Source: Candidatus Fermentibacterota bacterium (GTDB lineage: Bacteria > JAFGKV01). From it: a stretch of 5,314 nt of DNA. The stretch spans positions 1 through 5,314 of the forward strand of contig JAUXFG010000224.1 in assembly GCA_030620115.1 (NCBI GenBank). The letters run 5' to 3'. Below, one piece after another: positions 1 to 5,314 of this stretch (position 1 is the stretch's first letter; each line of letters opens with the position of its first letter). Made by a program: the position numbers and the translations under genes. The notes under the pieces are model-generated. The model did no database searches, was not told where the DNA came from, and saw only the letters and a list, made by a program, of their open reading frames with translations.

Positions 1-594
1 CCATCTCAGCGTGTATTTCCAATCGGATACATCCAGCGTGTCTAATCCGAACTCCACCTCCTGCTTGACGGTGACCTCTTCTCCGCCTCCTTCGGGCTCA
101 TACGTCACATAATGCCAGTACTTCACTTCATCTGCTGCCGCACTTTGCACAAACGAACACTCCGACGATAACGAATCCGGAAGTATCCTGAACACTGTCT
201 TCGATGGCACTTCCGCTTCATCATTCTCATCCACCGGCACATCCAGAATCTGATCCGACAGCTCCTCATCCACCTCCACCTTCACCACCCAGATACTCAA
301 CGATTCTTCCTCACTCAGGTACCAGATCGGATCATTCTGTGATCCTGGTGGATACGGACCAAATACCTCTGGCATGAACTTGTACTTGTTCGGCTCATAG
401 TCCCTCGTCTTGAAATAGTAGGTGTCCGGTCCCAAGACCATCAATGACTCCTCGCCATCAATCTCCATCCAGATGCTGTCTATCCGGGTATACGGAACTT
501 CCTCCCCCATGCCCAGATCGAACTGTCGGCTGGGGAGGTTATCGTTGCCCTCGAATAGAGCCAGTCGCACGGAAGCGGACTCATCGGATCAAAT
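1..594 (-). pseudogene. Truncated, frameshifted partial copy of the middle region of the upstream giant gene; continues off the left edge
   Basis: Read on the minus strand, this region matches codons ~367-563 of the giant gene (3581-4172). It opens with the shared SPLPCDWLYS and ends at the left edge in TLDVSDWKYTLRW. The best conserved block, ELSDQILDVPVDENDEAEVP, differs from the parent by one residue (Q for R). The copy has no 5' part: similarity stops at 594, and an in-frame TGA (599-597) lies in the adjoining palindrome. Neither ATG 584 nor ATG 510 has a ribosome binding site. A single-base deletion relative to the parent, at about 508-512, shifts the frame: frame one ends at TAG 482-480, and the parental frame is then open for all 170 codons from 510 to the edge. 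The only other length change I found is one extra in-frame codon near 80-85. This looks like a silent duplicate or orphan cassette; whether a functional 3' end follows off window is unknown. The deletion could be a sequencing error. Confidence 0.75.
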
Positions 595-596
595 GC

Positions 597-640
597 TCAG
601 GGCTCCTGATATGTTGAGCTCAACATATCAGGAGCCCTGA
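597..640. repeat. Perfect 44-bp palindrome with no central spacer
   Basis: The 22 bases of each arm are exact reverse complements. The symmetry centre lies between 618 and 619 inside GAGCTC (616-621), and the inner arm is CTCCTGATATGTTGAG. Symmetry ends at 597 and 640 because c596 cannot pair with a641, so the flanks are unrelated and this is not the edge of a longer fold-back. It begins two bases after similarity between the partial copy and its parent ends. RNA from either strand could form a strong hairpin, but no T-run follows on either side, so it is not a standard intrinsic terminator. It may be a recombination or integration scar, an operator, an RNA 3'-end stabiliser, or an assembly join. 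Confidence 0.93.
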
Positions 641-887
641 ATCTGAGAATAGTTGTCGCTTGACAAAAGCAAAGGTCGCGGCGCTCTAGGTCAGAAATGG
701 TTTCCAGCCGGCCCACAGGCATCGCCAGCGGTGTGCACTGCGTTCTCGCCCTTGGCAGAATTCCGGCGCGCCGAATCCCCAATGTGATAGTCCACTACGC
801 CCCCGTTCGCCCATAATGGCGTGAAGGTCACAATGCAAGGCTTATCCGGTGACGCTCACGAGCGCGGTGCCGGCCCCGCTGGCGGTC
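641..887. other. Non-coding stretch between the 388-residue gene and the palindrome
   Basis: About 250 bases in which I see no convincing gene. The longest minus-strand open frame with a start (782-597) uses the palindrome for its last 15 codons, has no ribosome binding site and reads as low-information sequence. Just downstream of the stop at 888, a GC-rich imperfect inverted repeat (about 846-874, with CGCTC and GAGCG as its core) could slow transcription, but no T-run follows. No promoter with a good -35/-10 pair was found on either strand. It may hold decayed remnants of an older gene. Confidence 0.5.
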
Positions 888-2054
888 CTACTCTTCCAGG
901 CGCCCTTCCGCTATCCCCCAGTACACGTCCTCGATGATCGGATCTTGCGCAAGCACACGCTGGTCGACTACCGACTCGCCCGCGATCCGCCCCTCGATGA
1001 GCTCCTGCCCCTTGCGATACAAGATATGCTCATCCCATATTTCGAGTATCTCGCATCCTACGCCCATTCCTTCCTCGGTCCAATCCCGCCCATCCTTCCA
1101 GTTAACAAACCTGTAGGGTCCGCTACGAACCCCATAGCCCGTTTGGTGGATCCCCCGGCGGTCCTCCAAGGTCATGTACGTGAATACCACCCACTCAGAG
1201 AACGCTTGGGCCACCGTCCCTCCTCCTGGCGAGAGGAATACCTCCCAGTCATCCTTGCCCCGGAGATGCATGGCATGGAAGCGCTGATCCTTCCCTTCTT
1301 CTTTTCCGTTGAGCCTGAATGCGAACAGAATCACTGAATCCGTCTGGGCGGATACCCCTCCACCGAGCACATCCCCCTTCCATCGGGTTCCGGGGAGCAT
1401 CCGAACGACGCTATCAGGCATGGCCACCGCCAGCGGGCGTGGTTCTGTACGCACGTTGTACCAGTAAGAAAGCTGACCACTCTTCGATACGTTGACCGCG
1501 AGAGGCCCATAGAACTTGCGACTCGGTATCGAGCCGTTGTACCTGACCAGATCCAGACGTCCCATCATTTCTGAAGTAGTGATCTCTCCAAGGCCGCCAT
1601 CCGCTGTAGTCGCCGTGTAGACGTCCACGCCGTCGGCCACGTGGCCGCGCAGGCCATGAGTCAACACGCCCACCGTAGAGTCATTTTCCGCAAGGAGATG
1701 CCCTCCGAAAACGGGATCAGAGTCTATCACCGACCTCAGATGGTCTTCCAAGTTGCGCAGATCGACAAGCGACACACGGCATTTCTTCGCCCTTAATCCC
1801 AAATCCTTTCCATTTTCCCAGCGACACCAGGTTGCTAGAACACCTCGCTCCCTCCAAAGCTCTACCTTGCGCACATTTCCACCATCCAGTGGAACTTCGC
1901 TTACCAAAGACATGCCGGCATCATGGTCAACTTTCCAGATCTGCGGATTCTCTGGAGGCACCCCTTCCTCTAAAGCAGAAACCACAAGATATCCTGCCAT
2001 CGCAAACCCAGGCAGTAGACTGCCGAATAATATGGCCCAAGTAAGATTTCTCAT
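888..2054 (-). CDS. Exported protein of unknown family, translationally coupled to the SLT-domain gene; candidate partner or immunity protein
   Basis: This 388-residue protein was not recognised. The start is well supported: ATG at 2054 overlaps the upstream stop as ATGA, with AGGAGGT six bases upstream. Residues 4-28 are hydrophobic after Arg2, and AMA at 18-20 before Gly21 is a plausible signal peptidase I site. An uncleaved membrane anchor is also possible because hydrophobicity continues through YLVVSAL. There is no Cys lipobox. The mature part has repeated short strand-like segments with aromatic and Val/Ile clusters (LSYWYNV, SVILFAFRL, EWVVFTYMTL, EHILYRKG) separated by polar turns, which suggests a beta-propeller or similar all-beta fold. 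I see no catalytic motif. The tight coupling implies production in fixed proportion to the upstream protein. A periplasmic inhibitor or immunity protein for the SLT domain fits the location and context, but substrate-binding or surface-assembly roles fit too. The gene is real; its function is unknown. Confidence 0.8.
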   Translation of the reverse strand: MRNLTWAILFGSLLPGFAMAGYLVVSALEEGVPPENPQIWKVDHDAGMSLVSEVPLDGGNVRKVELWRERGVLATWCRWENGKDLGLRAKKCRVSLVDLRNLEDHLRSVIDSDPVFGGHLLAENDSTVGVLTHGLRGHVADGVDVYTATTADGGLGEITTSEMMGRLDLVRYNGSIPSRKFYGPLAVNVSKSGQLSYWYNVRTEPRPLAVAMPDSVVRMLPGTRWKGDVLGGGVSAQTDSVILFAFRLNGKEEGKDQRFHAMHLRGKDDWEVFLSPGGGTVAQAFSEWVVFTYMTLEDRRGIHQTGYGVRSGPYRFVNWKDGRDWTEEGMGVGCEILEIWDEHILYRKGQELIEGRIAGESVVDQRVLAQDPIIEDVYWGIAEGRLEE

Positions 2055-5000
2055 TGATTCACCTCCTGCATCACCCTATTGAGATACCAGTCATTGTGAT
2101 CCCAATCCCAATGGCGGTCCGCAACCTCTTCCTCCCAGTCTACCCACCAGATTGGCCAATCACCTCCCTGACCGTTGTACCTCCACATGGCACAAGCGTC
2201 TGTGGGTGTCCGACCAGTGCCCTCTTGGAATGTGACTCCCGCCCACGTGAAGACCTCGTTCTGCAACGGCAAGTCAGGCCTGTCGTTGATCTGCTGTTCT
2301 ATCTGTCTCTGAATCCAATCCGCAGCCTCTCCACGATGGTCCTCCATCCTCGCCAATCCCTCATCAACATTTGCCGTCCAACTCCAAAGCTCCTGGGCTC
2401 CTGGAGTCGGCGTATCAAGTTGCATGATGCCCCAGCCCTCCACGGGTCCTCCCCAGTTTGGGCACCCCCGGATGTCTCCCCACCCCGGGCCCCATGCGCC
2501 AACCTCGTTGAACTGGGCATAGTAGCGGCCCTGCGTCGGGTGATCGCTCTCATGCCGGGCGATGTAGTGTGCATACCAAATCCCAGATGCCATGATCCTG
2601 GCCTCCACTTCGTCCACCGGGGGATTCACCCCTCTGATGTGGAACACATAGTCCTGATAGACTGTCACGCCCGCCACGCTCCACCTTAGCCTTGCCTTGC
2701 CGCCACGTCGGTCCTCGCCGAATTCATTTCTCATTACCCACTGTTCACCGGCACCGCACCACTCCCCATACGTATCGTAGTCCTGCCTCGCGTTTCGACG
2801 GTATTCGAGCACCAAATCCCAGTGTACAAAACCCTGCAGTTGCGGAGGAAGCATCTGCGCCCGCAGGTCCGGCATTTGGTCGTTACTGATGAAGGCGAAT
2901 TTGTCCAACCCGATCTCCAGCGTGGGAGTGACGTCCGGGTGTATGACTGTGAACTCCGCACGATCCAACTCTATCTCGCTCGATTGACCGTCCGATACTA
3001 CCAGAACGAGTGGTGCATCATGAGTAACCAAGCTCTTTTTCCACCCCTCAACCCACAAGTCCGTGAAGTCAGCCTGTGTCTCCTCTGTGAGCGAGTACCA
3101 GCATTCGCTGGTAGTGGCAGGATCTACGACGAGGTTCTCGAAACCACCAGTGCACCCCCTCCACACTCTCAGTCTGTCGCTCATCGAACGTAATCCTACC
3201 TTGAAACCATTAAGGTAGAACCAATCCGTCCACGGTTCCAATTGGATCTCGATCTTAACCAGGTCATTCTCGACGTCCACGAAATCTCCATACAGCAATT
3301 CTTCGGAATCAGGTATGTACTGATCACCGTTATCGTGGTCTGAGTTCAAGGGCACGTACACTCCCCTGCCCGGAAGTTGCTCCTCTACTTCGGGCACTGC
3401 ATTCCCGTTGGGAAGGTAGACTACTAGCCCGAACCCAGCAGCCAACGCCTCAATGTGGCCATCCGAATGGCCGGCTCCGGTCTCACGCGAACCACCCGTT
3501 TCCCCCCATCTCATCGAAATATGACTCGTGTATGGATTGTGGGCTGGATCGAACCATTGGTCGCCATCATCCTTCTGTTCCCAATGCAGCGTGTATCGCC
3601 AGTCTGATACATCCAGTGAGTCCAGTCCGAACTCAACCTCCTGCTTGACGGTGATCTCTTCGCCTCCTTCGGGCTGATACGTCACATAGTGGTAGAATTT
3701 CACTTCCTCTGCTGCCGCACTATGCACAAACGAACACTCCGCAGACAACGAATCCGGAAGTATCCTGAACACTGTTCTCGATGGCACCTCCGCTTCATCA
3801 TTCTCGTCCACCGGCACATCCAGAATCCTATCCGACAACTCCTCATCAACCTTAACTTGCACTACCCAGAAGCTGACTGAATCTTCTTCGCTCAGATACC
3901 ACAACGTATCCGTCGGCGCGTCAGGGGGATACGGACCATATATCTCGGGCCGGTAGGTGTACAAATTCGGCTCCCAGTCACTCGTGTCGATATAGAGCTT
4001 GTCATCCTCCATCACCAACAATGACTCCTCCCCATCTATCATCATCCAGATGCTGTCTATCTGCACAAAATGTATCTGCTCCCCCTTCGCCCAGATCGAA
4101 CTGTCAGTCGGAGATACTATGTGAGACGTCGAATACAGCCAGTCGCACGGCAGCGGACTCATCGGATCAAATTCTACCTCAGGATAGTACTCCTGCCACT
4201 CATCAGTCATACACCCATACACAATGCGCAACTGACCCCATCTGTACCAATCACCCCCGGGCGTGGTCATGCCTCCATTCAATGAACCCTGTATGATGTA
4301 TCCTCCTCCACCCATGGCATCCCAGCATACATACCCTACTCCCTCCCACTCCTCATCGCTCACCAGCTCTCCAGGTACCTTCACCTCATATCCCGCATGC
4401 ACATACGACCAGATTTGCCATAGCGCCCAGGCCGGCAGATCCATCAGCCCCATCTGTTCCTCTGCATTCGTGCTGTCCACATCATAGATCGCTATCCCCT
4501 GCTCAACCGCGCGAACCAATACCTTCACCGCGCTCACCGCATTCACCCCACATCGCTCAGCAAACACTTCATGCTCCATCCACGACGCCGAGCCTCCTCC
4601 CACAAACGTCCGCCCCTCCACAACCTTGTCGCGATCGCTCACTACTTTCCCTAACTCTACCAGATCGTTCGCACAATATATGTTCACGTACAATCCATTC
4701 CATGATACCCCCACCGCCTGCCCAAACACATCCGCACGCTTCAGCTCCGTGGACGCCACCGACATATCAGGCTCCTGTATTACCCACGTCCACCACAATT
4801 CGCCAAATCGGTCCCACATCCGTCCCACATGTTCCCAATATCGCATCACCATCCCGTGCAGCTCGCGACCCTGAGCCCCTTCTCCGTCGCCAGTACCGCG
4901 CCGCTCCCGCCACAGCAGCCCCGGAACACGCCACCCCATGGCGCCTGCACCCCACACCATCCCAGCCGTCATCTCCATCTCTCGATCGAACAGTTCTCCC

Positions 5001-5314
5001 TTGGGACTCGTCATCCGCCACCGAACCAGATACTTCTTCCCCAATCCGATCCCACCTTCGCCATGTGCTACTGTCTCTCCCTGTAGACGCATCACCGGCG
5101 TTAGCCTCACCAAGTACGCCGGCACCTCGAACAGCCCCCCATACGAAACTATTGTCACCGCGTCCTCGAGTGTCTCAGGTTTGAACCCTAACACCAACCG
5201 CCGCGTACCAACTTCCGCCATGGCAAGCTCCGCAGACAGCAATGTATCTGATCCACTGTACGCCTTCACTTCCAGCTTGTACCGCCAGCTTTCCGGGCAC
5301 TCATCATACTCCCC
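2051..5314 (-). CDS. Large transglutaminase-like-family protein ending in a lytic transglycosylase (SLT/lysozyme-like) domain; 5' end off window
   Basis: The frame is open to the right edge. A GTG at 5269 is not the likely start: it has no ribosome binding site, and the 15 codons before it (GEYDECPESWRYKLE) continue the family similarity. Residues below count from that GTG (1072 to the stop). Residues 1-340 resemble, from memory of the family, the part that follows the Cys-His-Asp core in large transglutaminase-like proteins: SYGGLFEVPAYLVRLTPV (42-59), AVSAVKVLVRAVEQGIAIY (244-262), EWEGVGYVCWDAMGGGGYII (307-326), then QGSLNGG. Any catalytic core would lie off window. Residues 360-885 are beta-rich and acidic, with an Asp-rich VPLNSDHDNGDQYIPD segment (639-654). 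Residues ~893-1050 form an SLT-like domain: putative catalytic Glu907 in IARHES, GWGIMQL (945-951), ANVDEG (966-971) and YNG (1031-1033). It should cleave the glycan strand of peptidoglycan, so it probably acts in the periplasm or outside the cell. The stop overlaps the next gene. The lysozyme-like call is firm; a toxin role is inferred. Confidence 0.86.
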   Translation of the reverse strand, partial: GEYDECPESWRYKLEVKAYSGSDTLLSAELAMAEVGTRRLVLGFKPETLEDAVTIVSYGGLFEVPAYLVRLTPVMRLQGETVAHGEGGIGLGKKYLVRWRMTSPKGELFDREMEMTAGMVWGAGAMGWRVPGLLWRERRGTGDGEGAQGRELHGMVMRYWEHVGRMWDRFGELWWTWVIQEPDMSVASTELKRADVFGQAVGVSWNGLYVNIYCANDLVELGKVVSDRDKVVEGRTFVGGGSASWMEHEVFAERCGVNAVSAVKVLVRAVEQGIAIYDVDSTNAEEQMGLMDLPAWALWQIWSYVHAGYEVKVPGELVSDEEWEGVGYVCWDAMGGGGYIIQGSLNGGMTTPGGDWYRWGQLRIVYGCMTDEWQEYYPEVEFDPMSPLPCDWLYSTSHIVSPTDSSIWAKGEQIHFVQIDSIWMMIDGEESLLVMEDDKLYIDTSDWEPNLYTYRPEIYGPYPPDAPTDTLWYLSEEDSVSFWVVQVKVDEELSDRILDVPVDENDEAEVPSRTVFRILPDSLSAECSFVHSAAAEEVKFYHYVTYQPEGGEEITVKQEVEFGLDSLDVSDWRYTLHWEQKDDGDQWFDPAHNPYTSHISMRWGETGGSRETGAGHSDGHIEALAAGFGLVVYLPNGNAVPEVEEQLPGRGVYVPLNSDHDNGDQYIPDSEELLYGDFVDVENDLVKIEIQLEPWTDWFYLNGFKVGLRSMSDRLRVWRGCTGGFENLVVDPATTSECWYSLTEETQADFTDLWVEGWKKSLVTHDAPLVLVVSDGQSSEIELDRAEFTVIHPDVTPTLEIGLDKFAFISNDQMPDLRAQMLPPQLQGFVHWDLVLEYRRNARQDYDTYGEWCGAGEQWVMRNEFGEDRRGGKARLRWSVAGVTVYQDYVFHIRGVNPPVDEVEARIMASGIWYAHYIARHESDHPTQGRYYAQFNEVGAWGPGWGDIRGCPNWGGPVEGWGIMQLDTPTPGAQELWSWTANVDEGLARMEDHRGEAADWIQRQIEQQINDRPDLPLQNEVFTWAGVTFQEGTGRTPTDACAMWRYNGQGGDWPIWWVDWEEEVADRHWDWDHNDWYLNRVMQEVNQ
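2061..2067 (-). promoter_or_regulatory. Ribosome binding site of the 388-residue gene
   Basis: AGGAGGT on the minus strand, with a six-base spacer before ATG 2054. It lies within the last codons of the giant gene (the QEVNQ end), so ribosomes finishing the upstream gene end on top of it. This fixes the start of the downstream gene and supports coupled translation. Confidence 0.9.
3581..4172 (-). repeat. Parent half of a ~0.59-kb direct repeat shared with 1-594
   Basis: This segment lies inside the giant gene (residues ~367-563) and has a second, diverged copy at 1-594 in the same orientation, about 3.6 kb away. Identity varies along its length. It is very high around the codons for ILDVPVDENDEAEVP and SPLPCDWLYS, and low around residues 381-403 and 421-455. 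The lengths, 592 and 594 bases, agree with one extra codon and one lost base in the copy. Direct repeats of this kind can recombine, which here would delete the SLT domain and the 388-residue gene together. Confidence 0.8.

Follow-up and report, generated by a model that had tools for sequence, protein, structure and literature searches.

A probable polymorphic toxin-immunity locus with a transglutaminase-like carrier in a Candidatus Fermentibacterota bacterium

An inactive transglutaminase has been described as the N-terminal domain of polymorphic toxins exported by the Sec pathway and type II secretion system, where RHS arrays always come after it and where its suggested role is to anchor the toxin to the cell surface (Zhang et al. 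2012; PMC3482391). Polymorphic toxin heads of the NlpC/P60 type are also known, in Haliangium (PMC3482391). In Rhs and contact-dependent inhibition (CDI; CdiA) loci, a constant carrier ends in a C-terminal toxin, an immunity gene lies downstream, and orphan cassettes share a stretch of the carrier. Here we describe a locus that fills an entire contig of 5314 bp (C36, hereafter the window) in the genome of a Candidatus Fermentibacterota bacterium (4.1 Mb in 296 contigs); neither flank can be extended. The minus strand carries all three of its elements: a large open reading frame (ORF), a 388-aa ORF, and a start-less copy of part of the large gene. The locus is probably part of a polymorphic toxin-immunity system in which a replaceable C-terminal tip is borne by a carrier that is exported via Sec and contains a catalytically degenerate transglutaminase domain. 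Throughout, G000 denotes the window's own genome and G001 a sister genome; contigs are numbered with the prefix C and loci with the prefix L.

The large ORF (5314->2051, minus strand; 1087 aa) is open at its 5' end, at the contig edge. Its carrier region (aa 2-351; 4262..5311, minus strand), which includes a conserved module ending GGGGYIIQGSLNGG, is collinear with positions 512-878 of the carrier profile (E = 4e-49), the N-terminal part of which is Transglut_core. Because of this collinearity, we expect the transglutaminase region to be encoded in the 5' part of the gene that lies beyond the contig edge; no transglutaminase domain lies inside the window itself. The module is followed by a bridge segment (approximately aa 352-677; 3285..4261, minus strand), lineage-specific and common to the G000 and G001 copies, with an approximate boundary placed by a drop in identity, and then by a variable C-terminal region (approximately aa 678-1087; 2051..3284, minus strand) that ends in a putative lysozyme-like head, assigned at the motif level. 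A Pfam search of the window recognised no family, and PHROGs, NCBIfam and PADLOC searches of it yielded nothing useful.

A scan of named genomes with the whole window protein gave no match, and the conserved module was needed as query. Residues 158-350 had protein matches in G022, an unrelated genome in which partial carriers with NlpC/P60 tips (PF00877, 4e-5) alternate with small exported genes. With the module alignment as query, 23 loci were recovered in named genomes of other phyla; genomes bearing the module include Geobacter argillaceus, Geothermobacter hydrogeniphilus, Pelotomaculum, 'Ca. Magnetocorallium', Nitrospinota and many Nitrospirota metagenome-assembled genomes (MAGs). Full-length carriers are about 1000-1230 aa long and comprise a Sec-type N-terminus, a coiled coil, Transglut_core (7e-14 to 7e-17), a conserved region with the module, which ends GVGYIIxDPxTGAGAYMISGGLxGG, and then the tip. 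The position of the transglutaminase catalytic Cys, assigned by eye, is held by Ala, Asp or Ser (QGNAFDTA- or QCNDFDTA-type motifs), and the His and Asp are kept. Neither the full-length relatives nor the window held any detectable RHS, FHA or TPS domain. The transglutaminase-like carrier of the original prediction is supported, by way of the relatives with which aa 2-351 align.

These carriers resemble the toxins of Zhang et al. (2012) in the signal peptide, the transglutaminase with a lost catalytic residue, the variable C-terminal toxins and the toxin-immunity order. They differ in that a post-transglutaminase region of about 350 aa and the module lead straight to the tip, without RHS repeats; in the window's family, the module reaches the tip via the bridge. 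The RHS-less carrier is a variation on the known inactive-transglutaminase toxins, and not wholly undescribed, because the signal sequence and the degenerate transglutaminase are common to both and RHS repeats are absent here. The suggestion that such a carrier was new thus survives in part: toxins with inactive transglutaminase were already known (PMC3482391), and we found no description of the form without RHS in the open-licence literature. The carrier class looks widespread but little noticed, its degenerate transglutaminase part having been mentioned only briefly in earlier surveys.

The original prediction had read the locus as effector, linked gene and orphan, with exchange of the C-terminus after a shared segment. 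This interpretation is supported by C-terminal swapping and linked next genes in the relatives, seen in the window's own genome, in its sister and in the 23 loci from named genomes. A paralog in G000 (C196) shares aa 26 to ~790 with the large gene at ~44-47% identity; identity drops from ~60% to 10-30% near aa 690, and the paralog ends in an NlpC/P60-type motif (YEWGG..., QCGALICC, RPGDLLIWPGGHVVAVV), followed by a gene for an exported 710-aa HEAT-repeat protein. In G001, one copy (C145) is ~60-80% identical to the large gene up to ~aa 660 and ~20% identical beyond it; its tip is caspase-like (weak DUF6345 match, E = 0.087), and two exported paralogous genes follow. A second copy (C302) shares the lysozyme-like tip of the window, but the exported gene after it, of 182 aa, is another one. 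The sister genome has further stubs of the shared segment that lack a start, on C145, C302, C262 and C122.

Across the wider set of loci, the carrier is constant and the tips are variable, the next gene is tightly linked and of a type that matches the tip, and orphans start inside the module. The tips that follow the module include short hydrophobic pore-like sequences, several NlpC/P60 subtypes (PF00877 matches in L052, 6e-13; L051, 1.7e-6; L028 and L062, 4e-5), caspase-like sequences (L058, L059) and others. Over 465 pairs, median identity was 47% in the module and 16% in the tip. Neighbouring copies within a locus were 94% (L054), 91% (L050) and 67-79% (L048) identical over the final 130 aa of the module, with tips no more alike than shuffled sequence; L062 holds one neighbouring pair with related tips. 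A close next ORF (same strand, at least 80 aa, start within ~40 nt of the stop) was found after 27 of 29 carrier ORFs, as against 43 of the 101 remaining ORFs at these loci (p = 5e-7). When tips were assigned to classes by hand, with L049 placed among the pore-like ones despite a tip below threshold, the next gene was polytopic after 14/15 pore-like tips and 0/9 NlpC tips (p = 8e-6); after all nine of the NlpC tips (9/9) the next protein had a single N-terminal hydrophobic segment.

The exported partners of NlpC tips include PD40 beta-propellers (L054, L060, L061), DUF4424 proteins (L047, L064) and small proteins (L062). Two genomes (L047, L064) have the same NlpC subtype and, in both, DUF4424-type exported next genes. 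Exported beta-propellers, PD40 or NHL-like, occur repeatedly after NlpC/P60 tips (L063 in addition to the three loci above), which suggests that the beta-propeller next genes may be a periplasmic immunity family. The known NlpC/P60 toxin heads likewise place a peptidoglycan-directed peptidase at the C-terminal tip; here, by contrast, the carrier is another one, and the candidate immunity proteins are exported beta-propellers, DUF4424 proteins or small exported proteins.

Complete carriers start at positions 2-8 of the carrier profile and orphans at 591-836; the orphans keep the module end, the tip and the next gene. Orphan cassettes occur in the window (1-597), in L042, L043, L048, L050, L051, L054, L062 and L064, and on contig C54 of a further genome (G065). 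On the last of these (74001-102000; L131, L132), seven carrier copies lie within 25 kb on a single strand. A polytopic gene comes after each of them and, in most cases, the toroid-gene 5' end, full or truncated (...NGLSWLSNNQNPDGSWG...), comes next. Where this toroid gene is complete, in other genomes, it encodes an SQHop/TED toroid + CARDB protein of 1500-1800 aa. The tip-immunity cassettes are thus bordered by conserved sequence on both sides, the carrier module and the 5' end of the toroid gene, and exchange of whole cassettes by double crossover would therefore be possible. No toroid fragment was found within the window, whose family shows homology on the carrier side. A gene with transglutaminase and module also occurs in the window's own genome (C264; PF01841, 1.6e-8), with a signal peptide or transmembrane segment ahead of the transglutaminase, and is followed there by a toroid/VWA gene; this pair (L084, 6395-11373), with its toroid-like region and VWA domain, is a divergent relative of the carrier/toroid pair.

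The last 207 aa of the large gene hold the motifs ARHES (with Glu922) and GWGIMQL (960-966) and a helix-like stretch downstream. The G001:C302 tip is 53% identical to the window tip and keeps the E-S of ARHES, GWGIMQL and the helix-like stretch. Among solved structures the best match was goose lysozyme (E = 0.04), and goose-type lysozymes and SLT lytic transglycosylases have the Glu-Ser and G-W-G-I-M-Q-L motifs in the same order; they differ from the window tip in that the latter goes unseen by Pfam and has weak sequence support. Glu922 is the candidate catalytic residue, and the tip a putative lysozyme-like peptidoglycan hydrolase. Relatives of the tip were absent from the plasmids, phages and viral contigs searched.

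The 388-aa ORF (888..2054, minus strand, read 2054->888) has an ATG that overlaps the stop codon of the large gene by 4 nt, and its product opens with a signal-peptide-like stretch, MRNLTWAILFGSLLPGFAMA; the overlap of the large gene with a small exported gene had been predicted as such. No homolog of the protein was found in the three family genomes searched, nor any Pfam match. It is a candidate immunity protein.

The third element, the orphan copy (1..597, minus strand), covers aa 382-578 of the large gene, within the bridge. As the original prediction held, it is a start-less, same-strand copy of the middle region of the large gene: the two share 82% nucleotide identity over 300 bp and 72% amino acid identity (E = 4e-80), far beyond chance. 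Its homology begins right after a stop codon inside a perfect palindrome of 44 bp (597..640), its frame changes at a run of G around position 500, and it continues off the contig. The 24-bp palindrome core (TGATATGTTGAGCTCAACATATCA) is present in three otherwise unrelated contigs of G000, namely the window (597-640), C43 (115-142) and C102 (115-138), and thus twice lies ~115 bp from a contig end; the palindrome is possibly the end of a dispersed element or an assembly fold-back.

Mobile and toxin-antitoxin genes were also noted near the relatives. Downstream of the NlpC-type paralog on C196, three consecutive tyrosine-recombinase genes form a RIT-like trio (L007, 6782-10046). On G001:C302 (L024), an IS66-like transposase (6102-7652) lies directly upstream of the start-less carrier copy, and a second carrier fragment is interrupted by an AAA-ATPase gene (1374-2801). 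Three stubs in G001 (L025, 1-1000; L026, 1-1900; L027, 5500-6057), which span ~aa 385-470 and are apparently cut on both sides, adjoin VapBC/Phd-type toxin-antitoxin genes, and these sites may be an insertion hot spot.

The copy and the palindrome could be an assembly artefact or mobile-element debris and the cassette layout of the window accidental, with the large gene nonetheless a member of a toxin family: the copy is start-less, frame-changed and at a contig end, it stops at a perfect palindrome, the core of which is also present close to the ends of two further contigs, and transposase and recombinase genes lie near the relatives. We consider this unlikely. A pure assembly duplication was ruled out, the copies differing at 18% of positions with a ratio of nonsynonymous to synonymous substitution rates (dN/dS) of 0.30. 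Because of this dN/dS, most of the divergence between orphan and parent arose under purifying selection, as coding sequence; it is old and formerly coding, not a duplicated read. Other genomes, moreover, have partial copies without a start, again with linked genes, on long contigs. At somewhat lower probability, and again unlikely, we place the view that the genes encode secreted enzymes or surface proteins of an ordinary kind, domain-shuffled and used for remodelling of the cell's own wall or for nutrition, with accessory secreted proteins encoded next to them and the orphan as a decaying duplicate. In its favour, secreted housekeeping proteins often contain peptidoglycan hydrolase or caspase-like domains, an exported HEAT or beta-propeller protein does not by itself identify an immunity function, and the two copies with lysozyme-like tips have different next genes. 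Against it, near-identical modules stand side by side with unrelated tips, the type of the next gene is predicted by the type of tip, and the many short hydrophobic tips paired with small polytopic genes fit a pore-type toxin with membrane immunity, not enzymes. Assignment to a strict Rhs/YD or CDI system is very improbable. The gene order and the logic of the orphans are those of Rhs and CDI loci, and known inactive-transglutaminase toxins do bear RHS arrays, but we rejected this assignment because RHS, FHA and TPS domains are absent; no CdiB partner was seen here, and, unlike in Rhs and CDI loci, a toroid (SQHop/TED) gene, in some cases with CARDB repeats, comes after many of the full-length relatives.

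The polymorphic toxin-immunity reading has its own difficulties, and the following points weigh against it. The transglutaminase part of the window gene lies off the contig and is known through relatives, and any tip of the orphan would likewise lie off the contig, which ends at position 1. The MAGs are fragmented. The lysozyme-like call is kept at the motif level because the window tip scored no higher than shuffled controls against an SLT-domain profile and by hhalign, and because AlphaFold, run on two sequences, gave no usable model (predicted local distance difference test, pLDDT, 33); of the lysozyme-like C-terminus first proposed, the motifs and the weak goose lysozyme match stand. The NlpC call for the C196 tip and the caspase-like call for the C145 tip are also at the motif level, since hhalign alignments, to NlpC and to the L058 and L059 tips, respectively, were not significant. 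AlphaFold gave no usable fold for the 388-aa protein (pLDDT 36). Finally, the 182-aa gene that follows the lysozyme-like tip on G001:C302 has no similarity to the 388-aa gene, which is unexpected for a cognate immunity protein. The mismatch is qualified by the C302 copy being itself start-less and next to a transposase. At this locus the weakest point is the assignment of immunity to the 388-aa gene, because the homologous C302 tip has an unrelated neighbour.

If the locus is a toxin-immunity system, events may be pictured as follows. The large gene would supply a carrier, its N-terminal part off the contig, with an exchangeable, putatively lysozyme-like tip. The carrier would leave the cell via Sec and then be held at the surface or released. 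Its tip would be delivered to neighbouring cells and cut their wall, and the exported product of the next gene would shield the producer's own periplasm. The orphan would be the end of a cassette, its shared segment allowing homologous recombination to place another tip-immunity pair on the carrier. Secretion to neighbours, toxicity, immunity and active recombination are what we infer from the sequence patterns above. More tentatively, and at a little short of even confidence, these loci may constitute a distinct RHS-less class on a degenerate-transglutaminase carrier, spread over several phyla, with two-sided cassette swapping by double crossover and wall-cutting tips matched by exported immunity proteins of beta-propeller type.

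If true, this would add a carrier class to the known polymorphic toxins, found in lineages such as Nitrospirota, Nitrospinota and Desulfuromonadota, in which interbacterial weapons have been little studied. The motif GxGYxxxDPxTGAGAYMISGGLxGG would mark the border between carrier and tip, so that the sequence past it could be taken as a candidate toxin and the product of the next gene as a candidate for immunity, making many unnamed proteins directly testable. Two of the hosts, Geobacter argillaceus and Geothermobacter hydrogeniphilus, have entries as named strains and not as MAGs, and tests in culture may thus be possible.

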